A stretch of DNA of 42,784 nt, taken from the IMG/VR virus record IMGVR_UViG_3300010391_000252, positions 1-42,784 of that record. The stretch is one strand, 5' to 3'. The notes under the pieces were generated by a model. The model ran no database searches. It was not told where the DNA came from and saw only the letters and a list, made by a program, of their open reading frames with translations. Positions within the stretch are counted from its first letter, which is position 1; each line of letters begins with the position of its first letter. This stretch comes from a virus. Below, in pieces: positions 15,775 to 41,786 of the stretch. The translations under genes were made by a program, and so were the position numbers.

Positions 15775-16163
15775 CTCTCCCTTACCTTCCTCCTCACATA
15801 ATCAGGCTCTAACCCCAATCCCTCGCATACCGACACGAACGACCCGGCCCACGCTGGGTCATCAGATTCGATCCATGCCCTAGCCTCTATACGTCTCCGG
15901 GACTTGATGCCGGGTTCAGGTCTGCCCCCATTATTACCAGTACCACCAGGGAACCGCTTGACAGCCCCTTCTCGCCCCACCAACCGAATGTCCACAGTAC
16001 CGGGTAAGGCATCCATCAGAGCACACGTCAAGATGGCATAGAAGAGTCGTTTCTCCCCGGACCATGATGTTGAAGTGTCAAGTTGACCAGGGAGTAGCCC
16101 TTCTGGCTGTAAGAGGGCATCGGTGACGCCATAATCTACGCCTGTGAATGCCTTAACATTCAT
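15765..16163 (-). CDS. Conserved small replication-region protein, 132 aa
   Basis: Start ATG 16163 has GGAG about eight bases upstream, inside the end of the polymerase gene. The product includes SGEKRLFYAILTCALMDAL, then RRRIEARAWIESDDPAWAGSF and VCEGLGLEPDYVRRKVRERW. The EA-x-WI-x-SDD ... F-x-x-VCE-x-LGL-x-P-x-x-VR pattern recurs in small phage and prophage proteins of unknown function; the C-terminal part looks like a small helix-turn-helix. Lies between polymerase and exonuclease genes. Confidence 0.65.
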   Translation of the reverse strand: MNVKAFTGVDYGVTDALLQPEGLLPGQLDTSTSWSGEKRLFYAILTCALMDALPGTVDIRLVGREGAVKRFPGGTGNNGGRPEPGIKSRRRIEARAWIESDDPAWAGSFVSVCEGLGLEPDYVRRKVRERWE

Positions 16164-18717
16164 TCTCAAACTCCTCTCTGGAAGGTAAGAGCTTCCATTC
16201 CTTCATGTCTAGCCAGTTACGGCCTACCTTGATCCCTATCGGCATAGCCATGGACCAGGGACCACCAGCGCCGGGGTAGGTTCGTTCGACACCCATTCCC
16301 TCACTGAGATACCTGGCGATGTCGTAGGCATGCTTAGGGAGGCTTGTGACGTTCAGGGAGTCGTGGCCCTGTTGCACGATGTTGGCACCAGGGAACATCC
16401 CCTTGGTGATGTCCTCGCTGAGAGGTACGAAGCCTAGACGGTTGGTGATGACCCCCACCTCATGCTGGGGTAGCTCCGCATACCCTTCCTTGTAGTCTTC
16501 CTTGGACAGGCGTAACCCCTTGAAGTAGTACCGTCTCCCCCAGCTAGACTCTAGGTACCCTAGTTCTATCATCTGCTGGCGCACCCACGCATGGTAGCGG
16601 CCGAGCCCTGGGGTACTCGCATGCAGCCGTGCTAGCCATTCTGTACATTCATCAGGGTCCAACACCACAGCACCCTCCGTCTCGACAAGGGTGATCTCGG
16701 CCATCCGCGGGCCCTCCATGCCGTAGTTGGCGGCATGACGAACCCGCTTGCCGAGCTGGCGTTGCTCCATGGCCTCGGAGTCACCAGCTTGGTAGGCCGC
16801 AATGAGCTCATCATACTCCCGCTCGAATATCTTGGAGGCATTGAGGATGTGCTGGTCCATCTCGGTCGGCAACATCCGAGCTAACCTCTGGAGTTCGGGG
16901 TCTCCTGTCATGCCATCGACGATGCGGGATTCCCCTTGTGACTGGTCTACCTCTACCAGCACATGACCAGGGTTCGCTATGAACATCTTGCGGAGGTCAG
17001 AGTGGCGGTCTCGGTTCTGGGCGTTGATACCCTCTACCTTGGAGATTGCTGACGATCGCAGGCGCCCCGTCTTGGCGGTAGGAGTATACCGTGATCGCAT
17101 ACGACCATCCTTGCTTACGATGGTTTCTCTGAGCTCTTGAAGAATCTTCGCATGGCCCCGGTAGCCCAAGACCAACTGGCCCATGGGCTTCGCCTTCTTG
17201 TACTTCCGCATGAGGCGACGGATGGCGAGCTCGTCAGCGGTACGGTTGCTAGTCCCCCGGCGATAGAAGGGCTTACACTTGAGGGTGTCATAGAAGTAGG
17301 AGGTGACCCGGGGTCCCGACAACCCCTTCTCCGCCACCAAGTCTATCCCTGCCATGGTCATCATGTCGGATCGATGTTGGGCTACCAGAGCCTTCTCCCG
17401 TAGCTCCATGGCATGGCGAGCTTGGTTATCCACGGCGAACCCCACCTGTGTCAGGTGCAGGCATGCGGTAGAGAGTCTTCGGTAATGGTCTCGGTAGACA
17501 GGCATAAGCCCCTGCGCCCGAAGCTGACCCCAGTATTGCTCGTCGGGGTTACCGATCAATGCACGGGTCCTGCTCACATCCTTCCCGTTGTACGTAAGAA
17601 ACTGGGGCCGGTCCTTGGTTCGCTTGCCAGGCTTGCCATCCTCCTTGGCCTCCGTCTTCCAGAACTTCACACGGAGGTCTCGGGATGCACAGTAGGCAAG
17701 GGTGTGCTGATCCCTAGGGTCCAAACAGTGATGCATTTGATGGGAGTCCCAGCGAGAGTTGTTAACTGTCTTCCCTTTCGCCCACAATACGTAGAGATCA
17801 TACAGTCCAAAATGCCAGCCCTTGGCGATGGGATGGGCTAGCAACCTCCCAACTGTTTTCCACCAGCCCTTGTCGGCGTGTAGGTCGAAGGTCATGGAGA
17901 AGTCAGGGGTAAGGGAGAACCCGATACAGTCAACTACCTTTCCATGCGCCACCGTCTCGATGTCACACGCCAACACCGCTGCACGGGAATCCTTCTGGTA
18001 GGTCTGATGCACTAGCATCTCGAAATGGTGTGCATCCTTCTGTGTCGGGTCGATCATGTGGTGGCAGCGAGGATCGAGCCTCAACTCGGGGAAGTTCTTG
18101 TCCCCGAGGATACGAAGCCAGTCGCTTTGCCACACATCGAAAGCATCTCCAGCTCGCAAGACGAATGCAGGATGGAAGGTCGGTATCACCTTGACCCGTG
18201 TACCAGAATTGGTACGTGCCCAGAAGATACTCCCTCGCCAGTTGTGAATCTTGTCCCGCCAGTCGATGATCTTGCCTTGGGGAGTGGCCTTCAACTTCCA
18301 GGTCCCCTTCTTGGTCACAGGTAAAGGGGTGCGTCGAAGGGTATTGAGAGCTAGGTTGCCCATCGGGATGACCACGGTGGGTGATAGATTCTCTAGCCGC
18401 CTCCAGAAGTCCTCCTGCCACTTGGCCACAGTAGCCGGAGTTAGCCTATGCACCGTGTTCTCGGGAGGTCTGACCTCCCCCACGTTCTCGATCCTCACAT
18501 GCTCCCGACGTAAGCCCATCATGGTGAGGCCGGCGAACTTGGTGGGGCCTGTGTAGTCCCGCCCCTCGAAAAGGAACCGGCCCGAGGTCCCTACGAAGGG
18601 CTCCCCGGCTGCGTCCTCTTCCTTCCCGGGCATCTCTCCCACTAACAGCACCGGGGCGCCGGTCGGGCCCACACCCGATACGCGGCGTCCTGTGATACCA
18701 GAGAAGGGGGTTTTCAT
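16153..18717 (-). CDS. UDG-like domain / 3'-5' exonuclease / family A DNA polymerase
   Basis: The replicative polymerase, 854 residues. N-terminal ~205: uracil-DNA glycosylase family 4-like fold (LLVGEMPGKEEDAAGEPFVG, VGEVRPPENTV, FHPAFVL) without visible Fe-S cysteines. About 245-400: proofreading exonuclease with Exo I CDIET, Exo II GWHFGLYDLYVL and Exo III YNGKDVSRTR. The rest is a PolA palm/fingers: motif A EVDQSQGESRIVDG, O-helix motif B GKRVRHAANYG, motif C QGHDSLNV. Motif C reads HDS instead of the usual HDE. A UDG-like domain in front of a family A polymerase is known from phage SPO1. Start: ATG at 18717 sits in the HNH stop (TGATG), so translation is coupled to that gene. Confidence 0.93.
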   Translation of the reverse strand: MKTPFSGITGRRVSGVGPTGAPVLLVGEMPGKEEDAAGEPFVGTSGRFLFEGRDYTGPTKFAGLTMMGLRREHVRIENVGEVRPPENTVHRLTPATVAKWQEDFWRRLENLSPTVVIPMGNLALNTLRRTPLPVTKKGTWKLKATPQGKIIDWRDKIHNWRGSIFWARTNSGTRVKVIPTFHPAFVLRAGDAFDVWQSDWLRILGDKNFPELRLDPRCHHMIDPTQKDAHHFEMLVHQTYQKDSRAAVLACDIETVAHGKVVDCIGFSLTPDFSMTFDLHADKGWWKTVGRLLAHPIAKGWHFGLYDLYVLWAKGKTVNNSRWDSHQMHHCLDPRDQHTLAYCASRDLRVKFWKTEAKEDGKPGKRTKDRPQFLTYNGKDVSRTRALIGNPDEQYWGQLRAQGLMPVYRDHYRRLSTACLHLTQVGFAVDNQARHAMELREKALVAQHRSDMMTMAGIDLVAEKGLSGPRVTSYFYDTLKCKPFYRRGTSNRTADELAIRRLMRKYKKAKPMGQLVLGYRGHAKILQELRETIVSKDGRMRSRYTPTAKTGRLRSSAISKVEGINAQNRDRHSDLRKMFIANPGHVLVEVDQSQGESRIVDGMTGDPELQRLARMLPTEMDQHILNASKIFEREYDELIAAYQAGDSEAMEQRQLGKRVRHAANYGMEGPRMAEITLVETEGAVVLDPDECTEWLARLHASTPGLGRYHAWVRQQMIELGYLESSWGRRYYFKGLRLSKEDYKEGYAELPQHEVGVITNRLGFVPLSEDITKGMFPGANIVQQGHDSLNVTSLPKHAYDIARYLSEGMGVERTYPGAGGPWSMAMPIGIKVGRNWLDMKEWKLLPSREEFENEC

Positions 18718-19169
18718 CAACGAGACCGCCGCGCTGCCCGTCGATACTCACACAACTTACAACTTCTATTCTTTTTCAGGTTTTCTATGGTGCGTCTGTG
18801 TCCTCGCAAGCAATATAATTGACGAGGCCGCTTCGCCAACGCTCGACGGTTATTCTCTGCCGTACTAGTCGCGTCTAGGTGTTGGGGATTGACACAGCTA
18901 CGATTGCTGCACAGATGGTCCACAACCTCTTGCGGCTTCAGTTCCCGGTTGAAGAACTGAAAGGCCCACCTATGGGCTGAGACCATGCCATTCAACCAAA
19001 ATCTACCATATCCGGCCCGGTTCTTCCCGATCCACGCCCAACATCCACGGGTTACGCGAACATGAGACATGAACCGGGCAAGAACCGGATTCCGGTATTG
19101 CCGACAGTGGGAACATCGGTATTGCACCAACCGACGCCCCGTTATTCCGCTGAAAGGTGTGAGAGCCAT
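18717..19169 (-). CDS. HNH endonuclease whose N-terminus copies that of the polymerase
   Basis: A 150-residue homing-type nuclease: CSHCRQYRNP, a beta-beta segment GCWAWIGKNRAGYGRFWLNG, the HNH core AHRWAFQFFNRELKPQEVVD-HLCSNRSCVNPQHLDATS and a C-terminal zinc motif (CLRGHRRTIENLKKNRSCKLC). Residues 4-13, TPFSGITGRR, are identical to residues 3-12 of the polymerase that follows, but the codons differ at nine of ten positions. Stop overlaps the polymerase start by one base. This suggests that the gene arrived carrying the 5' end of a diverged polymerase gene. Confidence 0.88.
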   Translation of the reverse strand: MALTPFSGITGRRLVQYRCSHCRQYRNPVLARFMSHVRVTRGCWAWIGKNRAGYGRFWLNGMVSAHRWAFQFFNRELKPQEVVDHLCSNRSCVNPQHLDATSTAENNRRALAKRPRQLYCLRGHRRTIENLKKNRSCKLCEYRRAARRSR

Positions 19170-22923: not shown

Positions 22924-23075
22924 CTTGCTGGAGTTCCCATAAGCCACCGTCGTGTAAAGCAATCCTCACACAGCGTAGGAGTCCTCGGAAGATTGAGCCT
23001 GCGTAATACCCGTGGCCTCTTCCGGCAGCATGCCTGGCACTTGTTAAGGTGCTCCCCTTCGATGCGCTTCGCCAT
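22920..23075 (-). CDS. Zinc-ribbon-like microprotein, 51 aa
   Basis: MAKRIEGEHLNKCQACCRKR, then TLCEDCFTRRW. Two C-x-x-C knuckles separated by a basic linker indicate one bound zinc. Starts within the upstream endonuclease stop (TGATG) and ends within the next start (ATGA). Confidence 0.6.
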   Translation of the reverse strand: MAKRIEGEHLNKCQACCRKRPRVLRRLNLPRTPTLCEDCFTRRWLMGTPAR

Positions 23076-23539
23076 CAACTTCCTTTCCCTTCCGGATCCA
23101 CCTGGCCATAGGCGGCGTAGTTCAGCGCTAGCTCCACCCCTTCATCGTGAAAATGGGTGTACCCCCAGTACGTCAGCACCTCAGACCATGTTAGCTCATC
23201 AAACACACTCACCGCATTGTTACAGCGGGCACACAGCAAAGAACGGTTCCTCTTCGTGCGATGGTCATGGTCGACATACAGCCCATATGGCACCACTTGG
23301 CGGCACAGCGCACAAGACCCCCGCTGAGCTGCTAAGCGTATAGCATATTCGTCAGGCTCCATGCCGTAACGACGGCGACGGCGGCTCGCCACAGGCCCTC
23401 CCCGAAATGTTAGCTTACCTGCACACTCTCGACTGCAACACTTTGTCCAGTGACGTGACTTCCCGTTATCCTTATTACGGGAAACAAAGGATACACCACA
23501 TGTAATGCAGAAGGCTTCTTTAGAGTGTTCTATTTGCAT
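23075..23539 (-). CDS. Endonuclease VII-like HNH nuclease
   Basis: 154 residues. An N-terminal zinc knuckle pair (CITCGVSFVSRN, CCSRECAGKLTF) precedes the core: SCALCRQVVPYGLYVDHDHR followed by SLLCARCNNAVSVF. The C-x-x-C ... DHDH ... LLC-x-x-CN layout is that of recombination endonuclease VII (T4 gp49 type), which resolves branched DNA before packaging; some members are homing enzymes. Overlaps its upstream neighbour by ten bases. Confidence 0.8.
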   Translation of the reverse strand: MQIEHSKEAFCITCGVSFVSRNKDNGKSRHWTKCCSRECAGKLTFRGGPVASRRRRRYGMEPDEYAIRLAAQRGSCALCRQVVPYGLYVDHDHRTKRNRSLLCARCNNAVSVFDELTWSEVLTYWGYTHFHDEGVELALNYAAYGQVDPEGKGS

Positions 23540-34869: not shown

Positions 34870-35208
34870 ATGGATAGGCAAGATGATCGATTCCTTTGGT
34901 TCACTCTTCAGAATGGGGTTACGGCCCCCAACGACGGGGCATGGACCCGATTGAAGGGCCGCCACCCTGTCCATGTGACCATCGAAGGGACCTTTGCGGC
35001 CTCAGCCCGCATCCTTGGTTCCAACAATCCGAACCAGCCTCTGGATTCCTTCAACGATGCCCCGGTAGTCGATGGGGTGACCCACGGTGGCCCGACGACG
35101 GTCAAGGTCGACACCCCCTACGAATGGATCAAGGTCCAGGTGACAGCCTACACCTCAGGCGCGCTCTCGGCCTTTGTCCGGAGTGGCCAGGGACCCGACT
35201 CGTGCTAA
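34870..35208 (+). CDS. Beta-rich small protein, 112 aa
   Basis: MDRQDDRFLWFTLQNGVTAP, HPVHVTIEGTFAASARILGS, PTTVKVDTPYEWIKVQVTAY. A single beta-sandwich pattern of the type seen in small virion or decoration proteins. Its stop overlaps the start of the next gene. Confidence 0.6.
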   Translation: MDRQDDRFLWFTLQNGVTAPNDGAWTRLKGRHPVHVTIEGTFAASARILGSNNPNQPLDSFNDAPVVDGVTHGGPTTVKVDTPYEWIKVQVTAYTSGALSAFVRSGQGPDSC

Positions 35209-36473
35209 GGCTCGCCCTCGTACTCTTGCTAGCGTTGGTCGGGGGTGTCCATGCCGACACCATCCACGAGGCAGGTCTTCACGTGTGGCCCTTTGGCCAG
35301 ATGCGGATTGGTCCCCTTCAGTTTGCGGACCTCCTTTCTCCCTGCAAAAGTGGGACAGAGACCTACTGCTCCGATTGCAATCAGACTGATCCATGTACAG
35401 GTGGCGGAACCGGAGCGTGGTCCCAGTGCATCAACGGGACATGGTCCTGTGTATCTGGCGTGGGAGGTGGAAGTGGCAATGTCACCGGGAATGGCCCCGT
35501 GATGATTGGGGAGATTGCGGTCTTCTGTAACCCCTTCGGTACATGTATCGAGGGTATTGGGGTTCCTGGTCTCTGTAGTACCAACACCGAAGCAGCGCGA
35601 GGCGTGGATACCTTTGGAGCGGCGGATGGGTGCCATGAGGTTGCGGATGGAGATGGTGCGGGTGCGGCTACCTCCCTCAACCTCACCGTTGACCCTGCCA
35701 ACTGCACACCACCAGACCTCGCGGTGGGGATCGACGTAACGGGAGCAGCTCAGTGCGTCTCGTCAACTACGACGACATCAACCACTACGACCACCACTAC
35801 AACCACCACTACAACCACCACACTTACCCCCAGCGGTGATGGCTTAGGCTTCCATTCCAACCGCTGGTACGTCAACAAAGAGTCTTCTGGCGCTGGAAGT
35901 TCTTCGCGCACCTTTCCCGCAGGCTTAGGATTCATGTGCTTGTTTCAGCTAGATGGTCGCGTCCATACTTTTAACAAGATTGGGGTACGCTCAGGGGCAA
36001 CTGTAGGGAATGATACAATCCTAGGCATATACCTGATAGACCCTGACGATATGTCAGTAGATGCCATTCTTGTTGATTCTGGCGTGTTGGCTGCAGGGAA
36101 CGCCGCCTCGTCTACCTTTACTGAAGCTACGATAAGCTTTACGACCACCGCGGCACAGACGTTAATCGGCTTAGCAGTCGTAAATGTAGAAGCAGCCGCA
36201 ACTACAATCTTTTCTATTGGAACGGGAGGGGGACAACACTCTCCTGGTATGCTAGGAGCTAACCACCCCTCACAACTTGCAGCGGCAGGGGGCGAAGGTG
36301 CAACAGGTGCTGGAACAGCGATTCCTAATAATTGCTACGGTGTTACCGGGCAACAGGGAGCAACAGCATTACCGTCGGTAGGAAGTTGGATTCTACTCAA
36401 CACTTCAACGCATTCCCCTTTGACATTCTCCGACACCGGCGCTGTCTGGATTCGTGCTTTATCGACACCGTAG
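35202..36473 (+). CDS. Exported fibre-like protein with poly-threonine linker
   Basis: GTG at 35202 overlaps the preceding stop region; the frame is open further up but that part is out-of-frame shadow of the previous gene. The 423-residue product starts with a clear signal peptide (MLRLALVLLLALVGGVHA), then a Cys/Gly-rich domain, a linker of 18 Thr with one Ser (about 187-205; TTTTSTTTTT...), then a ~215-residue beta-rich head (FNKIGVRSGATVGNDTILGI, TLIGLAVVNVEAAATTIFSI). DNA after the linker is markedly more A/T-rich. A receptor-binding or surface adhesin role is likely. Confidence 0.6.
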   Translation: MLRLALVLLLALVGGVHADTIHEAGLHVWPFGQMRIGPLQFADLLSPCKSGTETYCSDCNQTDPCTGGGTGAWSQCINGTWSCVSGVGGGSGNVTGNGPVMIGEIAVFCNPFGTCIEGIGVPGLCSTNTEAARGVDTFGAADGCHEVADGDGAGAATSLNLTVDPANCTPPDLAVGIDVTGAAQCVSSTTTTSTTTTTTTTTTTTTTLTPSGDGLGFHSNRWYVNKESSGAGSSSRTFPAGLGFMCLFQLDGRVHTFNKIGVRSGATVGNDTILGIYLIDPDDMSVDAILVDSGVLAAGNAASSTFTEATISFTTTAAQTLIGLAVVNVEAAATTIFSIGTGGGQHSPGMLGANHPSQLAAAGGEGATGAGTAIPNNCYGVTGQQGATALPSVGSWILLNTSTHSPLTFSDTGAVWIRALSTP

Positions 36474-36477
36474 CCCT

Positions 36478-37236
36478 ATGACCCAAGGCCTCCGCCTAGA
36501 CCTTCCCCCTGGCGAGGAACACCGCTTGAGGGCCGTATCGCGCCTCCGAGCTATCCGTGCCGCCAACGAGGAGAAATACGCTGCCCACCCCTGGCCCTTT
36601 CTCTGTGAAGCCGTCTACACTTTCGATCCCTTCGCAAACGAGCAAGGGGGCGGGATTCACAAGTACCCTGGGGACTCCATCAAGGACCCCTCACCCTCGT
36701 GTGACTGTCGAGAGGGCGGCTGTATCAACTACCTTGAGCATGTCGTCAACGTCTGGTTCGCTAACACCCGTACTGCCTGGCCCAAGTCCCGACGGTTAAT
36801 TACGTCGTGGACCATGATCGCTCTCCACGTGTGGCTCGCCCGCTACCGACCCGGCCAGGTGATAGCGTTCGTCTCTCGCAAGCAAGGCCAAAACGAGGAT
36901 GAAGGGGCCGCCGAGCTCGTCAAGCGTGCTCGGTTCATCGAGGATCACCTCCCTGCGGAGGTCCAGCCTCGTGAGACCAAGCGTACGTGGTGCCGGACGT
37001 GGTACTCTCACAACAACTCGACGATCTTGGGGGTAGCTCAGGGAGCGGACCAGCTAAGACAGTTAGCAATCTCAGCTTGGTTCGGGGACGAGTTTGCGTT
37101 CTGGGAGGCCGCTGCGACAACATACGCAGCTAGCATACCAGCGTTAGAGGGCGGCGGGAGAGTTACTTTGGTATCTACTGCTAATCCTAGCTTTTTTAAG
37201 CAACTGGTGATGGATGAGTGGCATACAGGTACATAA
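36478..37236 (+). CDS. Large terminase subunit, N-terminal ATPase half
   Basis: Powers DNA packaging. 252 residues: adenine-binding region, deviant Walker A (TRTAWPKSRRLITSW, ~98-112), a helix with DEGAAELVKRARFIEDHLP, Walker B AWFGDEFAFWE (D204-E205) and coupling motif VTLVSTANPSFF (~229-240). It stops at MDEWHTGT, exactly where family members continue into the linker and nuclease domain, found 2.6 kb downstream at 39804. Start ATG 36478; an upstream GTG at 36454 would overlap the previous gene. Confidence 0.85.
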   Translation: MTQGLRLDLPPGEEHRLRAVSRLRAIRAANEEKYAAHPWPFLCEAVYTFDPFANEQGGGIHKYPGDSIKDPSPSCDCREGGCINYLEHVVNVWFANTRTAWPKSRRLITSWTMIALHVWLARYRPGQVIAFVSRKQGQNEDEGAAELVKRARFIEDHLPAEVQPRETKRTWCRTWYSHNNSTILGVAQGADQLRQLAISAWFGDEFAFWEAAATTYAASIPALEGGGRVTLVSTANPSFFKQLVMDEWHTGT

Positions 37237-37685
37237 TGGGACGACCTAAGGGTAGTTGGAAGGGAAAAGCGAACCCACGGTGGGCTGATGGGATTAGGTA
37301 CACCAACGGCTACCGAATACGGTATTGCCCCGACCATCCTTATGAAGTTGAGGGGTACGTTCCCGAGCATCGTTTGATTGCTGAGTGGGCATTAGGTCGG
37401 GTATTGGCCCCCATCAACCAAATCCACCATGTCAACGAGGTCAAGGATGATAACAGCCCTGGGAACCTTGTAGTATGTGAAGACCAGGCTTACCACTACC
37501 TCCTACACACGCGAGCGAGGGCAGTCCGAGCAGGCTTCCCTGCCCCCTACCGTCGTTGTCCTTACTGCAAGAGGTACGATGACCCGGTTGGAATGCGACC
37601 TAGATGCGGTGGGCGCGTCTATGCCCACCAGAAATGTCATGCCGCCTACGAGTTGGCCCGGTACCACCGATGTCAGGCAGCCTAA
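37236..37685 (+). CDS. HNH homing endonuclease at the left end of the cassette
   Basis: Starts inside the terminase stop (TAATGG). 149 residues: GRPKGSWKGKANPRWADGIR, YVPEHRLIAEWALGR, then NQIHHVNEVKDDNSPGNLVV (HH...N...NL, HNH_3 pattern) and a C-terminal zinc finger (CPYCKRYDDPVGMRPRCGGR, HQKCH). Typical of intron- or intergenic homing enzymes. Confidence 0.88.
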   Translation: MGRPKGSWKGKANPRWADGIRYTNGYRIRYCPDHPYEVEGYVPEHRLIAEWALGRVLAPINQIHHVNEVKDDNSPGNLVVCEDQAYHYLLHTRARAVRAGFPAPYRRCPYCKRYDDPVGMRPRCGGRVYAHQKCHAAYELARYHRCQAA

Positions 37686-37687
37686 CC

Positions 37688-37882
37688 ATGCGTGCGAAGG
37701 AATACGAAGTGTTCCACCGTGCTGTAGAGGAGGGGGCTGCTTACCGAGCCCATCGCTTTTGGAAGTACAGGGATGATAGCCCCCCTGACTACCTCAACGA
37801 GTTGGTAGAAGCCATCGTGCAGGGAGTCGTGGACAATGTCTGTGAATGGTTTACATTTCCCGAGGACGTGAAGGATGAGTGA
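37688..37882 (+). CDS. Hypothetical helical protein, 64 aa
   Basis: MRAKEYEVFHRAVEEGAAYR then AHRFWKYRDDSPPDYLNELV. Acidic C-terminus. Overlaps the next gene by eight bases. First passenger gene after the HNH gene in the terminase-splitting cassette. Confidence 0.55.
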   Translation: MRAKEYEVFHRAVEEGAAYRAHRFWKYRDDSPPDYLNELVEAIVQGVVDNVCEWFTFPEDVKDE

Positions 37883-38051
37883 GGGAGAGGGGGAGGGGGT
37901 TCCTAAGTATGGTTGGCGAGGCTCCGATCCCCAGTGCATCAGCTGTGGGCGGGAAGTCGTCGCCATGACCAACGGTGTCCAACCCCTCTTCTGTGACGAG
38001 TGTACCGAGCGCTGGGAGAAGGCCTACACTGACGGCAAGTTCTTGGGCTGA
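37875..38051 (+). CDS. Zinc-ribbon protein, 58 aa
   Basis: MSEGEGEGVPKYGWRGSDPQ then CISCGREVVAMTNGVQPLFC DECTERWEKAY: C-x-x-C-x15-C-x-x-C zinc ribbon. Inside the cassette. Function unknown. Confidence 0.6.
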   Translation: MSEGEGEGVPKYGWRGSDPQCISCGREVVAMTNGVQPLFCDECTERWEKAYTDGKFLG

Positions 38052-38087
38052 TCCCCCTAGCCCTCTTGCTGCCTTCCATGGGGGAAT

Positions 38088-38095
38088 GGTAGTCT
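38088..38095 (+). promoter_or_regulatory. Recurring motif GGTAGTCT
   Basis: In the 71-base gap before the 109-aa gene. The flanking sequence (cttgctg ... 18 bases ... TAGTCT) could be a weak promoter, giving the cassette genes their own transcript. Confidence 0.28.
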
Positions 38096-38122
38096 CCCTT
38101 TACCAACTAGGAGGCCTCCTCT

Positions 38123-38452
38123 ATGGCTGCAACGCTTAGCGCTACCGGAACCTGGACCAACCTCTCGACCGTCCTTGACGCAACCCGCTCCAACCTGATT
38201 GGGAATGAGCCCCGTCTTGAGGGTGCCAAGGGTGCCGCTCCCGGTGGCCTCGGTGTCAACTTCGACGTGCTGAAGACGATGGAGGGAGTAGAATTCCCCG
38301 AGCTCAAGCAGTTCATCCAGCTCGTGGCTACCCAGTATGGCCTCTTCTACTGGCCCGCCGCAGCCCTGGTAGACTTCTTCCTCCGGGCCCTCAAGTCAAC
38401 AAAGTCTGACACGGTCCTGGGCGACGAGAACGGCGCCCGGGTCTTCCCGTAA
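38123..38452 (+). CDS. Structural-like protein, 109 aa
   Basis: Strong site aggaggcctcctct before ATG. MAATLSATGTWTNLSTVLDA, then FPELKQFIQLVATQYGLFYW. Its first residues (M-x-A-x-x-SA-x-GTW-x-x-L) match the next gene, so the two may be paralogues. Likely a small virion protein. Confidence 0.6.
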   Translation: MAATLSATGTWTNLSTVLDATRSNLIGNEPRLEGAKGAAPGGLGVNFDVLKTMEGVEFPELKQFIQLVATQYGLFYWPAAALVDFFLRALKSTKSDTVLGDENGARVFP

Positions 38453-38461
38453 GGAGCCATC

Positions 38462-38782
38462 ATGCCAGCCGCCATTTCAGCATCAGGTACGTGGTCCGCC
38501 CTCGACGATCAGAACCCCCCCTCGCAGGCCCCTGGCGCCAATGTCAACGAAGTCCTGCGAGTCCATCGGGATACCGTGGAGCAGCACTTCCAGCCCCGCT
38601 CCCTCGATTACATGCAGTATCCCAACGACGTGGACGGTCACCAGGAAGTGATGCAATTCGTGGGGCTCTTCGCCGCAGGTTACGCTATCGACTCGGCCGC
38701 TGCCTTGACCCGCATCCGAGACATCCTCGAGAGCTTCCAGAATACCGAACAGCTCCCTGAGCGTCGGGTTTACGAACCGTAG
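38462..38782 (+). CDS. Structural-like protein, 106 aa, possible paralogue
   Basis: MPAAISASGTWSALDDQNPP, then VDGHQEVMQFVGLFAAGYAI and DSAAALTRIRDILES. Shares the N-terminal M-x-A-x-x-SA-x-GTW pattern and a helix-hairpin C-terminal half with the preceding gene. Confidence 0.6.
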   Translation: MPAAISASGTWSALDDQNPPSQAPGANVNEVLRVHRDTVEQHFQPRSLDYMQYPNDVDGHQEVMQFVGLFAAGYAIDSAAALTRIRDILESFQNTEQLPERRVYEP

Positions 38783-38791
38783 AGCCCTCCC

Positions 38792-39022
38792 GTGGCCGAT
38801 CTTTTGGCCGATCCTACGCAGGGGAATGGGGGCAAGGCCCGGCGTGATCTTGCCCTGGTAGGAACGTTAGCGGTGTGTGTGGTGTCGACATCCACCCTTG
38901 CGGGCCTTTCCATGTTCTGGCAGCCGGCCCAGTGGGATCTCGTCGACAAGGTTGTAGAGGGCCTTCAGACTCTCAACCTTCTTCTCGCGGGAGGCCTCCT
39001 TGGTGTCCAGAGAGCCAAGTAG
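38792..39022 (+). CDS. Holin-like membrane protein, 76 aa
   Basis: GTG start. Two predicted membrane helices (LALVGTLAVCVVSTSTLAGL and LQTLNLLLAGGLLGVQ) with charged N-terminal (KARRD) and C-terminal ends. Size and topology fit a class II holin; it lies in a run of membrane proteins in the cassette. Confidence 0.5.
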   Translation: MADLLADPTQGNGGKARRDLALVGTLAVCVVSTSTLAGLSMFWQPAQWDLVDKVVEGLQTLNLLLAGGLLGVQRAK

Positions 39023-39109
39023 ATGGTCGCCCTCGTAATCATGCTTGTGTTAGATGCCCTCCTCGTATTGGTCTCTAGCTTCCTACGCTCTGTCCTTTAC
39101 GGTTGCTAG
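39023..39109 (+). CDS. Membrane microprotein, 28 aa
   Basis: MVALVIMLVLDALLVLVSSF then LRSVLYGC: one hydrophobic helix. Starts right after the holin-like stop. Confidence 0.4.
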   Translation: MVALVIMLVLDALLVLVSSFLRSVLYGC

Positions 39110-39110
39110 C

Positions 39111-39308
39111 ATGAACCTTCCCACCCTCACGCGTGGGCTTGTGATCGGCACCGTAGCCCTTTGGGTCGCCTGGGACATCGTTGCTATCGTGCGTGGGGGC
39201 TACGAGGCTAGCGAGACAGCGCAGATTAGACGGTGGAGTAGGTACCCGATGGTTCCTTTTGGGATTGGATTGGTTGTTGGCCATCTTCTATGGCAAAGTT
39301 GCCCATGA
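39111..39308 (+). CDS. Small membrane protein, 65 aa
   Basis: MNLPTLTRGLVIGTVALWVA then WDIVAIVRGGYEAS and a second helix MVPFGIGLVVGHLLW. Two membrane helices around a charged loop, resembling holin-like or antiholin proteins of phages. Stop overlaps the HNH-AP2 start (ATGA). Confidence 0.55.
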   Translation: MNLPTLTRGLVIGTVALWVAWDIVAIVRGGYEASETAQIRRWSRYPMVPFGIGLVVGHLLWQSCP

Positions 39309-39802
39309 GCCCCAAGAATACATACACCATGCTGCCTGGTAAATTGGTTCAGATTGCTCTGACACAGGGGTTCTCAGCGTTGATAAACTTGGTGGACCTG
39401 CCTCTGGTTGCGCCGTATCGCTGGTGTGTCTCATCCGTAAAGGGCAGACACTATGCACGGTGTTATGGGAAAAAGCGGCAATATATGCACCGTCTTATCT
39501 TGGTGACTAGCGAAGTGGATCACCGCAATGGTGATGGGCTAGACAATCGACGGTGTAACTTGCGGAAAGCAACTCACCGGCAGAACATGCAGAATAGTAG
39601 CTGTCGTTCTCATAACAAGAGTGGTTATAAGGGTGTGGTATTTGATGAGAGTCGGAGCCTTTTCCGTGCCACGATTAGGGTGGATGGAAAGCAGCGGCAT
39701 CTAGGTCGTTTCCCGACCGCCGACGAAGCAGCACGAACTTACGACAAGGTGGCGAAGGCTGTATTTGGTGTTTACGCTCGTCCGAACTTCTTGGATTCCT
39801 AA
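39305..39802 (+). CDS. HNH-AP2 homing endonuclease at the right end of the cassette
   Basis: 165 residues: beta N-terminus (GKLVQIALTQGFSALINLVD), HNH core (MHRLILVTSEVDHRNGDGLD then NRRCNLRKATHRQNMQN) and a C-terminal AP2-type DNA-binding domain (SGYKGVVFDESRSLFRATIR, VDGKQRHLGRFPTADEAART). This class is typical of group I introns and free homing genes. It ends one base (G) before the ATG of the terminase nuclease half. Confidence 0.9.
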   Translation: MSPKNTYTMLPGKLVQIALTQGFSALINLVDLPLVAPYRWCVSSVKGRHYARCYGKKRQYMHRLILVTSEVDHRNGDGLDNRRCNLRKATHRQNMQNSSCRSHNKSGYKGVVFDESRSLFRATIRVDGKQRHLGRFPTADEAARTYDKVAKAVFGVYARPNFLDS

Positions 39803-39803
39803 G

Positions 39804-40772
39804 ATGGTTAGGCACCCGAGACCAGGTGTGGAGCAGTGGGTCAATGCCCGGAATGGGTTGACCGTGGTCAAGCTCCACTACACTTGTGATCCTCGCAAGC
39901 GTACAGTCGTATGGAAGGCCCAAGCCTCAGCAAACATGCACCCGCGGGCATGGAGACGCGAGTACGAAATCGACTGGGCCTCCCCCGCTGGTGAACCTGT
40001 CACCCCCGAGTATGCCGAGGAGACCCATTGTCGAGCCTTCGACTGGGACCTCAAGTTGCGACTCCTTCGTTTCTGGGACTTCGGCTTCGTCTCACCGGTA
40101 TGTCTGTTTGCGCAGCTTACACTGTTCGGTCAACTGCGGGTGCGTCGGGAGTTGTGCCCTTTTAACACCCCCCTCGACCAACTCATCCAAGGTATGGAAG
40201 CCATCACCCTAGACCTTGGTGGCTACGACGCTATCCTCGCCCGTATGGATGCATGGGACGTGGGTGGAGCTGATCCTGTCACCCCTGCAGCCTTCGACGC
40301 AGGGGACCCCTCAGGGAAAAACCATACAGACCTGGGGTGTAGTGCTGAGGTCCTAGGGGAGAAGGGGATCACTCTCCACACGACCCGTCCCGGTACCGAG
40401 GTCTCCTACGCCAACCTCCGTGGACGCCTCCTTCGCCATGTTATGGAGCCTGCGGTGGGTCCCGTCCCTGCCCTCATCATTCACCCTGACTGCCACAACC
40501 TCCGTAGCGCTCTTGCTGGTGCCTTTCACTTAGGGCCTCTCCCTCCACACAAGCCCGTCAAGACCCATCCTGAGGGGGACTTGGTTGACGCGTTACGTTA
40601 TGGCGAAGACAACATCCGCCAACTGGTTGGTGGCCAAGCCAGCATACAGATGCGGCAAATGGCCATGGGGGACGTGCGGGAGCTTCGGGCCATTGACGGG
40701 CCAGCCTCCCAGGGAGACACTTGGGCAGATCGTCAACGAGAGAAGTGGGTTACACTCATCGAAGGAATGTAG
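39804..40772 (+). CDS. Large terminase subunit, C-terminal nuclease half
   Basis: 322 residues from ATG 39804 (no Shine-Dalgarno; TTG at 39765 is an alternative). Begins MVRHPRPGVEQWVNARNGLT and VVKLHYTCDPRKR, the linker that normally follows the ATPase domain, then REYEIDW, the nuclease motifs LLRFWDFGFVSPVC (D~92), FDAGDPSGKN (D~166/169) and PEGDLVDALRYG. Together with 36478-37236 it makes a full-length TerL of about 574 residues with no obvious missing segment. Whether the halves work as separate chains or are joined by splicing is not decided by sequence. Confidence 0.85.
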   Translation: MVRHPRPGVEQWVNARNGLTVVKLHYTCDPRKRTVVWKAQASANMHPRAWRREYEIDWASPAGEPVTPEYAEETHCRAFDWDLKLRLLRFWDFGFVSPVCLFAQLTLFGQLRVRRELCPFNTPLDQLIQGMEAITLDLGGYDAILARMDAWDVGGADPVTPAAFDAGDPSGKNHTDLGCSAEVLGEKGITLHTTRPGTEVSYANLRGRLLRHVMEPAVGPVPALIIHPDCHNLRSALAGAFHLGPLPPHKPVKTHPEGDLVDALRYGEDNIRQLVGGQASIQMRQMAMGDVRELRAIDGPASQGDTWADRQREKWVTLIEGM

Positions 40773-41132
40773 ATGGCAGACCTGACACTCAGCGAGGCTC
40801 AACGTGCCTTTGCCAAGTGTGTCGCCAACCTCATCTTGTGGACTTGTGAAAAAGAAGGACACGAAGTTACGCTTGGTGAAGCATGGAGGTCCACGGCGAC
40901 CGCGAGAATCATGGCCGAGCAAGGGAAAGGCATTGTCAGAAGTCTCCACATTGAGCGGCTCGCCATCGATCTCAATCTCTGGCGCGACAACCAGTGGCTC
41001 CAAGACACCGAAGCCCATGAGCCTCTGGGCGCGTATTGGAAGACTTTGCATCCCTTGGCGTGTTGGGGAGGAGACTTTAGGCCGCGACCCGACGGGAATC
41101 ACTACTCCTTCCAGTGGCACGGCCGGAAGTGA
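40773..41132 (+). CDS. Endolysin, M15-family peptidase (VanY/L-Ala-D-Glu peptidase-like)
   Basis: 119 residues. Zinc ligands: His ~59 in GIVRSLHIERLAIDLNLW with Asp ~66, and His ~110 in RPDGNHYSFQWHGRK; WGGDF sits between. This S-x-H-x6-D ... DGNHF/Y pattern is that of phage D-Ala-D-Ala or L-Ala-D-Glu carboxypeptidase endolysins. It cuts peptidoglycan cross-links at lysis. Starts directly after TerL. Confidence 0.9.
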   Translation: MADLTLSEAQRAFAKCVANLILWTCEKEGHEVTLGEAWRSTATARIMAEQGKGIVRSLHIERLAIDLNLWRDNQWLQDTEAHEPLGAYWKTLHPLACWGGDFRPRPDGNHYSFQWHGRK

Positions 41133-41176
41133 TAAGCGTAAGAAGCCTCGCTAACCTCCCACCAAAGGAGCCTCTC

Positions 41177-41425
41177 ATGCCTGCCGCCCTCATCCCTGTC
41201 CTTGTGGCCCTGATCCCTGTCCTCGCCCCCTTCGTTGTCGCTGGAGCCAAAAGAGTTGGGTCCTTCCTCGGAACCAAGATTCCCAACTCCATGAAACCCG
41301 TCCTCAATGCTCTCTTCGGGGCTATCATGGCCTACGCGACTGGCAATGACCCAATACAGGGAGTCGTCCTGGCTCATGTCGCTAAGTCAGTGCGGGATCA
41401 GCTCGACAAGCCCTCCCTGTCGTAA
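41177..41425 (+). CDS. Holin-like membrane protein, 82 aa
   Basis: Good site caaaggagcctctc. N-terminal hydrophobic helix (LIPVLVALIPVLAPFVVAGA), a basic loop, a second helix (MKPVLNALFGAIMAYATG) and an amphipathic tail. Directly after the endolysin, so a holin or holin partner is plausible. Confidence 0.55.
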   Translation: MPAALIPVLVALIPVLAPFVVAGAKRVGSFLGTKIPNSMKPVLNALFGAIMAYATGNDPIQGVVLAHVAKSVRDQLDKPSLS

Positions 41426-41525: not shown

Positions 41526-41786
41526 ATGCGCATCCTCGCCACTCTTGTGCTTGCCGTTGCCCTTGTTGCCCCGAGCGCGGCCTTCGCGAACTCACCCCTC
41601 TGTAACCTGCCCTATACGGACAAAGAGGGGCTCAACAAGGTCATTGACAAGCTGGATGCGGCTCTGTCGGCCATCTTCGTCAACTGCAACACGACCACGC
41701 CCCGGTTCGTAGTGACTACCACGACCACGACGACTACGACCACGACAACCACCACGACGACGACCTCAACCACGACCACCACATAA
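41526..41786 (+). CDS. Exported protein ending in poly-threonine, 86 aa
   Basis: Strong site ccaaaggagccc. Signal peptide (MRILATLVLAVALVAPSAAF, cleaved after about FA), then a short helical part (KEGLNKVIDKLDAALSAIFV), and the last 23 residues are 22 Thr with one Ser. It looks like a stalk without a head. The codons for Thr vary (ACC, ACG, ACA, ACT), so selection on the peptide is likely. May be glycosylated or a truncated fibre. Confidence 0.65.
   Translation: MRILATLVLAVALVAPSAAFANSPLCNLPYTDKEGLNKVIDKLDAALSAIFVNCNTTTPRFVVTTTTTTTTTTTTTTTTTSTTTTT

Follow-up and report, generated by a model that had tools for sequence, protein, structure and literature searches.

A phage large terminase apparently encoded by two genes, divided between its ATPase core and its lid, with a gene-collecting gap between them

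The window analyzed here is the complete 42,784-base virus record IMGVR_UViG_3300010391_000252, in which the large terminase (TerL) is encoded by an ATPase half and a nuclease half in two separate open reading frames (ORFs). The gap between the halves spans 2567 bases and holds nine ORFs, two of which are HNH endonucleases. An initial annotation, made from the letters of the sequence, had described a nine-gene cassette between the two halves, and on rereading both its coordinates and its nine ORFs were recovered. The features of the locus are as follows.

36478..37236, + strand: TerL chain 1, predicted ATPase core (subdomain I), with a PKSRR P-loop, a Walker B DE and a motif III STAN; its end is STANP plus 15 residues
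37236..37685, + strand: HNH endonuclease 1 (HNH1), with an HNH_3 domain; its ATG lies inside the ATPase stop, and no counterpart was found in the gap of the related contig L006
37688..37882, + strand: small ORF of 64 amino acids (aa), without a family match of usable significance
37875..38051, + strand: small zinc-ribbon-like ORF of 58 aa, with a CxxC...CxxC pattern seen in the sequence
38123..38452, + strand: gap gene A, 109 aa, also between the halves in L006 (69% identity), L019, L030 and L082 (G015), and after the ATPase in L084 (G016)
38462..38782, + strand: gap gene B, 106 aa, with weak similarity to A and 64% identity to the L006 gene at the same position
38792..39022, + strand: hydrophobic ORF of 76 aa, recognized from sequence; absent from the L006 gap
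39023..39109, + strand: very small hydrophobic ORF of 28 aa, recognized from sequence; doubtful whether coding
39111..39308, + strand: hydrophobic ORF of 65 aa, recognized from sequence; absent from the L006 gap
39290..39802, + strand: HNH-AP2 endonuclease 2 (HNH2), separated by a single base from the nuclease half; not present in the L006 gap
39804..40772, + strand: TerL chain 2, with residues 1-63 as lid/subdomain II by position and residues 64-276 as a predicted RNase H-fold nuclease with Asp92, Asp168 and Asp262

The gene ends were read directly. The ATPase half runs from the ATG at 36478 to a TAA stop at 37234-37236, which the HNH1 ATG at 37236 shares in a TAATG junction from 37234 onward; at the other side of the gap, the TAA of HNH2 (39800-39802) is followed by a single base, the G at 39803, and then by the ATG of the nuclease half at 39804, whose stop is at 40770-40772. 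The initial annotation had thus correctly placed an HNH gene starting within the stop of the first half, an HNH-AP2 gene stopping one base before the second, and the end of the ATPase half just after motif III, which occupies residues 233-236. Its three membrane-type genes were likewise seen as three hydrophobic ORFs, the 28-aa one with the doubt given above, and its labels of “structural-like” and “lysis-type” for gap genes found no support in any family match in the window. HNH1 matches Pfam HNH_3 (E, 3.6e-6), and HNH2 matches HNH_3 (1.1e-5), AP2 (6.7e-6, below the AP2 cut-off) and PHROG 99 HNH (6.8e-41). No second, intact terL emerged from the scans of window ORFs: the nuclease half has one match within the 42,784 bases, the ATPase and nuclease profiles each match one ORF among those of at least 60 aa, and no terminase was found among 17 other ORFs, a subset scanned against PHROGs and/or Pfam, in which portal, major head protein, DNA polymerase and endolysin-like genes were seen.

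Neither TerL half has a Pfam match, and the ATPase half matches a PHROG TerL profile weakly (3.9e-5); the assignment to the TerL family is made on the basis of family profiles and structure models. A profile of 27 ATPases matches T4 gp17 in PDB (E, 1.2e-12). The model of the ATPase half (predicted local distance difference test score [pLDDT], 87.5; predicted template modeling score [pTM], 0.87) aligns with residues 99-305 of T4 gp17 (3cpe) over 203 residues, with a Z score of 21.8 and a root mean square deviation (rmsd) of 3.1. In the model of the nuclease half (pLDDT, 82.5; pTM, 0.74), residues 64-276 align with residues 235-417 of the D6E TerL (Z, 20.2; rmsd, 2.2; 172 residues) and with residues 361-560 of gp17 (Z, 13.9; rmsd, 3.1; 166 residues). 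Since the two models align to gp17 99-305 and 361-560, residues 1-63 of chain 2 would occupy the place of gp17 306-360; these 63 N-terminal residues are in the right position for the lid, or subdomain II, with the reported structural matches starting only at about residue 59-64. Subdomain II of gp17 we take to be approximately residues 314-360, which would put the break between subdomains I and II rather than at the domain linker. The available portions of PMC9958956 and PMC3012670 describe for gp17 two subdomains forming the ATP cleft, plus a linker, without residue numbers. The models hence place the break inside the ATPase, with chain 1 predicted to correspond to gp17 99-305 and chain 2 to the remainder, the putative lid, plus the nuclease. 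Seemingly, no essential segment is missing between the halves, as had initially been annotated, given that the models cover gp17 99-305 and 361-560 and that 63 residues are available for the interval.

Scanning IMG/VR with the ATPase half recovered one contig, L006, whose ATPase half is 75% identical to that of the window and ends 17 residues past the motif III proline, versus 15 in the window; its nuclease half is 68% identical and starts within a few residues of that of the window. Alignment with relatives, a check suggested by the initial annotation, thus revealed a split at the same place in L006, along with single-ORF relatives that match both halves. Scans with the halves themselves, as proteins or profiles, gave few relatives, and motif patterns gave more. 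A pattern built on FWDFG, an RNase H motif, and residues further downstream matched 18 stretches, and a Walker B pattern, DE[FM]AFWExA, matched 45; a scan of genome contigs added two loci in a Bacillota metagenome-assembled genome (MAG). Profiles of five ATPase halves and six nuclease halves were compared with 71 sequences (70 loci plus the window), and G015 and G018 were added afterwards from whole-record results. Once duplicates and near-identical viruses had been removed, separate ATPase and nuclease genes are present at 17 loci in 16 records, including the window, with the Bacillota MAG (G002) having two such loci; in all 17, both genes are on one strand, with the ATPase preceding the nuclease. 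Ten distinct single-ORF members match both profiles (11 with L065, which is near-identical to L040). A distant two-ORF locus (L029) and contigs with only an ATPase or only a nuclease (L015, L052, L059/G016 and L069) were left uncounted.

The distance between the halves varies widely. They overlap or lie close together (-17 to 26 bases) in L009, L048, L037, L042, L050 and L056, joining as TAATG in L009 and L048 and as ATGA in L042, probably the type of overlap found in translationally coupled genes. Elsewhere, the gaps measure 179 (L008), 439 (L039), 554 (L051), 1330 (L030), 1466 (L019), 1543 (L006), 1848 (L067) and 1885 bases (L038), and about 2.1 kb in G018 and 4.1 kb in G015, next to the 2567 bases of the window. 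In the 15 records outside the window, scanned whole, the matches amount to a single ATPase and a single nuclease for each split locus, the nuclease of G011 being one ORF with an insertion that is listed as two matches, and there is no extra fused copy of terL. Among cultured phages (the “phages” collection), no split TerL was recognized among the matches listed (in one search, the best 15 of 85), which included only distant TerLs. As a separate observation, a fused member (L040:10035-12566) and a split member (L056:8870-10732) both have a large insertion with a LAGLIDADG_3 domain at one shared position of their nuclease part; these insertions may be inteins.

The key residues of both chains are conserved. 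The ATPase alignment, comprising 27 of 28 candidates (L069 is cut by the contig end), has K103, R105, R106, D204 and E205 invariant; the nuclease alignment, comprising 33 of 41 candidates (L002, L020, L023, L027, L029, L039, L056 and L070 were left out), has D92, D168 and D262 invariant. Among the split members, the Walker B DE is present in 17/17 ATPases and K[ST]RR in 16/17 (L050 is cut there), and the catalytic Asp residues of the nuclease are present in 17/17 for the first, in all 16 sequences with letters for the second, and in 14/16 for the third, where L056 has no letters owing to its insertion. Between the window and L006, the nonsynonymous distance (dN) is 0.20 for the ATPase and 0.27 for the nuclease, with the synonymous distance being saturated or 3.3; such low dN values against saturated or near-saturated synonymous sites point to purifying selection on both halves.

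The gap, on the other hand, differs in content from member to member. In L006 it holds five ORFs, two of which are homologous to A and B of the window; another has a Cys pattern like that of the 58-aa zinc-ribbon-like ORF, without blastp support. The window differs from the L006 gap in having the two HNH genes and the three hydrophobic ORFs: no Pfam match to an HNH domain was found among the five L006 gap ORFs or the six gap ORFs scanned in L082 (G015), and none was detected in the L019 and L030 gaps by blastp against the HNH genes of the window (one L019 ORF was also scanned with Pfam). Genes A and B are found in the gap throughout the window clade (the window, L006, L019, L030 and G015), with the similarity of B being weak in L030 and G015. 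They have no useful family match in Pfam/PHROG scans, and gene A of L006, searched for in viral contigs, matched solely its own contig. The G015 gap further encodes a GH19-like hydrolase (Pfam, 2.1e-5, slightly short of the cut-off) and a collagen-like ORF, the L067 gap an ORF that is glycosyltransferase-like by eye, and the L038 gap ORFs that look secreted or tail-like. A hydrophobic gene of L019 (reverse complement, 1213-1653) lies in the TerL gap, and its counterpart in the window (41114-41425; 27% identity, E of about 1e-7) is downstream of the nuclease half; by their different positions, genes have moved into or out of the gap. No direct duplication of the terL ends was found in the gap, where there were only chance matches of 11 to 14 bases.

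When a tree is constrained to keep the split members (17) apart from the fused ones (10), the p value of the approximately unbiased test (p-AU) is 0.39, versus 0.61 for the best tree. As this arrangement is not rejected, a single transition suffices for all 27 members. This comparison left out the distant loci L029, L047, L060, L062 and L064, the near-identical L065, and loci from the same contig or from the same or a near-identical virus (L007, L026, L054, L058, L032, L045, L046, L057, L061, L063, L066, L001, L005 and L022). When distant TerLs served as the root, one tree had the fused clade nested within the split members (supports of 24 to 100), and the split L042 falls inside the fused clade with weak support. 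The change may have been an ancient fission or, with separate genes as the ancestral state, a later fusion in the single-ORF relatives. Among 300 genomes of the class to which the Bacillota MAG belongs, 10 have an ATPase match at an E of ≤1e-8. Besides the MAG, L090 and L092 are fused, and L086, L087, L088, L089 and L091 have the ATPase core as its own ORF, with the nuclease intact and adjacent to it in L089 and L091; in L093/L096 the ATPase is spread over two ORFs and the nuclease is a further, separate one, and L094 matches weakly, within an ORF of 447 residues. The prophage ATPases of L086, L087, L089 and L091 have Thr in place of the Walker B aspartate (TE[LMV]AFW).

Taking these findings together, we consider it very likely that the window encodes a permanently two-gene large terminase, an old and heritable two-chain motor whose inter-gene gap collects genes, the HNH genes having come late. 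The initial annotation had offered, as one of its two readings, a TerL working as two chains with genes locked between them, and the same-place split in relatives, the kept motifs and the purifying selection support this choice. The HNH genes we infer to be free-standing mobile arrivals at a tolerated site and not the cause of the split. That two proteins are produced, assemble and package DNA is predicted from sequence.

Several points weigh against this reading. The P-loop of the ATPase is deviant, PKSRR, without the usual GK[ST]; at the third catalytic position, the L083 nuclease has Asn and L039 is unaligned. L006 may have lost HNH genes that it once had. The nuclease ORF is a fragment in the Bacillota prophages L086 and L088, and likewise in L087, there near a contig end. 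Most records may themselves be fragments, and a fused copy could lie outside them. Finally, according to the portions of PMC9958956 and PMC3012670 that bear on it, T4 gp17 cut at the linker keeps its ATPase and nuclease activities and loses translocation, from which a two-chain motor would not be expected to work without special contacts.

A first alternative is that terL was broken in this phage by the very insertion of a homing endonuclease, for which a ribonucleotide reductase gene offers a reported precedent. The HNH genes do abut both halves exactly, and PMC10448857, as far as its text was available, notes that homing endonucleases are often near terminase genes in phages and mentions a homing endonuclease gene (HEG) that divides the reductase gene into two working chains. 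However, the split is also found without a detected HNH gene in L006 and, mainly by blastp, in L019 and L030, as well as in members with no gap, and one transition fits all 27 members. We therefore regard such an origin as very improbable for this phage, although an endonuclease could possibly have had a role in the original fission.

Slightly less probable still is that the gap is a self-splicing group I or II intron, carrying the HNH genes and passengers, whose splicing would restore a single TerL. Other phages do splice terL, as seen in parts of the reports on ICP1 (PMC10448857), the Jug phages (PMC12363816) and a Staphylococcus phage (PMC11934314), the last with a group I intron in terL, and the arithmetic that the initial annotation had given for such an intron is correct: joining ggt (ending at 37230) to atg (39804) keeps the frame and leaves a terminal G. 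The covariance search that it had called for was run on the window and the loci of six relatives at the gathering threshold and on 36400-40800 at an E of ≤5. Rfam gave no match at gathering in any of these and none at an E of ≤5 in 36400-40800; in the T4 control, run both ways, 0/2 introns were recovered at gathering and 1/2 at an E of ≤5. As these absences weigh little after the T4 control, the case against an intron rests on comparison: the break recurs at one position in relatives whose gap sequence is unrelated or lacking rather than one shared inserted element, the stop and start codons of the two halves share bases in L009, L048 and L042, leaving no room, and the gap is filled with ORFs, two of them conserved. 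The description of a terminase split by an intron or homing insertion bounded by two HNH genes does not hold, given the same-place split of L006 without a detected HNH gene and the abutting or overlapping members.

A third alternative, about as doubtful as the intron, is a chimera, with the halves coming from different terminase families. It appeared likely at first, when blast related the ATPase half to the TerL of 9NA/Pam3 and the nuclease half to the TerL of MW202637, whose ATPase did not match, and it was dropped once fused relatives matched both profiles: the single-ORF L031, L033, L034, L044, L055 and others match both strongly, and these relatives join the same ATPase and nuclease families. 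In the nuclease tree, the nucleases of the window clade do group with those of fused MW202637 (L002)-type TerLs, which have another ATPase family (alternatives, p-AU of 0.012; topology test on 35/47 sequences). Placement of these TerLs as an outgroup explains the grouping, which is equally expected in the unrooted tree in that case; an exchange of halves may also have occurred. Further, the pairwise distances of the two halves in the 17 split members are correlated (r, 0.72; 0/2000 permutations as high), which argues against a chimera and is best read as joint descent, not contact. A decaying or artefactual terL, through a pseudogene, frameshift or assembly error, to which the broken nuclease ORFs of some Bacillota prophages might point, is scarcely credible in view of the intact motifs, the low dN against near-saturated synonymous change and the same architecture in independent records. 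A split intein was also rejected, there being no intein ends: chain 1 stops 15 residues past STANP, and the alignment of chain 2 with relatives begins within its first few residues.

Returning to a two-gene terminase, we propose that TerL is separated between its ATPase core and its lid. Chain 1 would be the engine, namely, subdomain I with the P-loop, Walker B and motif III, and chain 2 the lid, or transmission part, together with the RNase H nuclease/translocase. The two proteins would most likely be made from co-directional genes of one operon and join non-covalently on the portal, where chain 2 would complete the ATP cleft in trans with its subdomain II wall. Insertions would be tolerated where the two genes meet, giving rise to a lineage-specific block (A and B in the window clade and other genes in other members) and, here, to two HNH genes. 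A bolder form of this proposal, which we hold to have an even chance of being right, is a motor free of covalent linkage, with the ATP cleft completed in trans, the amounts of the parts set separately, and, in the window clade, A and B maybe acting as extra subunits that couple two rings. If so, the motor could dispense with the covalent linkage that is reportedly essential in T4. In T4, the engine, transmission and wheel are one chain; a naturally split lineage could be used to ask directly whether force passes via a covalent linker or a protein interface and whether the stoichiometries of the rings must match. It also serves as a warning for annotation that terL, in use as a single-copy marker, may consist of two widely spaced genes.

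Elsewhere in the window, an HNH gene (18717-19169, - strand) lies upstream of the DNA polymerase (16153-18720, - strand), and the two products start alike, with an identical ten-residue ...TPFSGITGRR whose codons vary at synonymous positions; it looks as though an HNH gene had been inserted and the 5' end of the polymerase gene copied around it. With a further endonuclease-like gene at 23075-23539 (- strand; Pfam Endonuclease_7, 3.1e-12) and the two in terL, the phage has at least four endonuclease-type genes. The ORFs at 34896-36473 and 41526-41786 contain long runs of threonine codons.

With respect to known systems, the single-chain TerLs of T4 (gp17), D6E, Sf6 and P74-26 share with the two chains the ATPase core fold, the RNase H nuclease and, judged by position for the lid, the core-lid-nuclease order, and differ in being one polypeptide, where the window and 16 other loci have the two domains on two ORFs; the natural break would precede the putative lid, whereas the experimental cut in T4 is at the lid-nuclease linker. 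In the eukaryotic herpesviruses, the UL15 gene has its terminase ATPase and nuclease parts split, with unrelated genes inside the intron, and is spliced. The SEA-PHAGES terms “terminase, large subunit, ATPase domain” and “nuclease domain,” phrases for which no literature match was found, suggest that two-gene terminases have been annotated in actinobacteriophages. In the available portions of the open-access literature, we found spliced and intein-bearing terL genes and no description of a permanently split one. The terL genes with group I introns (ICP1, the Jug phages and a Staphylococcus phage) are similar in having an interrupted frame with endonuclease genes nearby, but those of ICP1 and Jug are spliced back according to the RNA data excerpted from PMC10448857 and PMC12363816, whereas the abutting halves of relatives of the window leave no room for an intron. 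The inteins of the Mic1 terL are likewise mobile insertions in TerL, but inteins rejoin the protein, and the halves in the window have no room for intein ends. The HEG-split ribonucleotide reductase mentioned in PMC10448857 has two chains and a HEG between them; the present case differs from it in that the split is found in relatives without a detected HEG. We accordingly file the two-gene terL as a variant of TerL and not as a separate kind.

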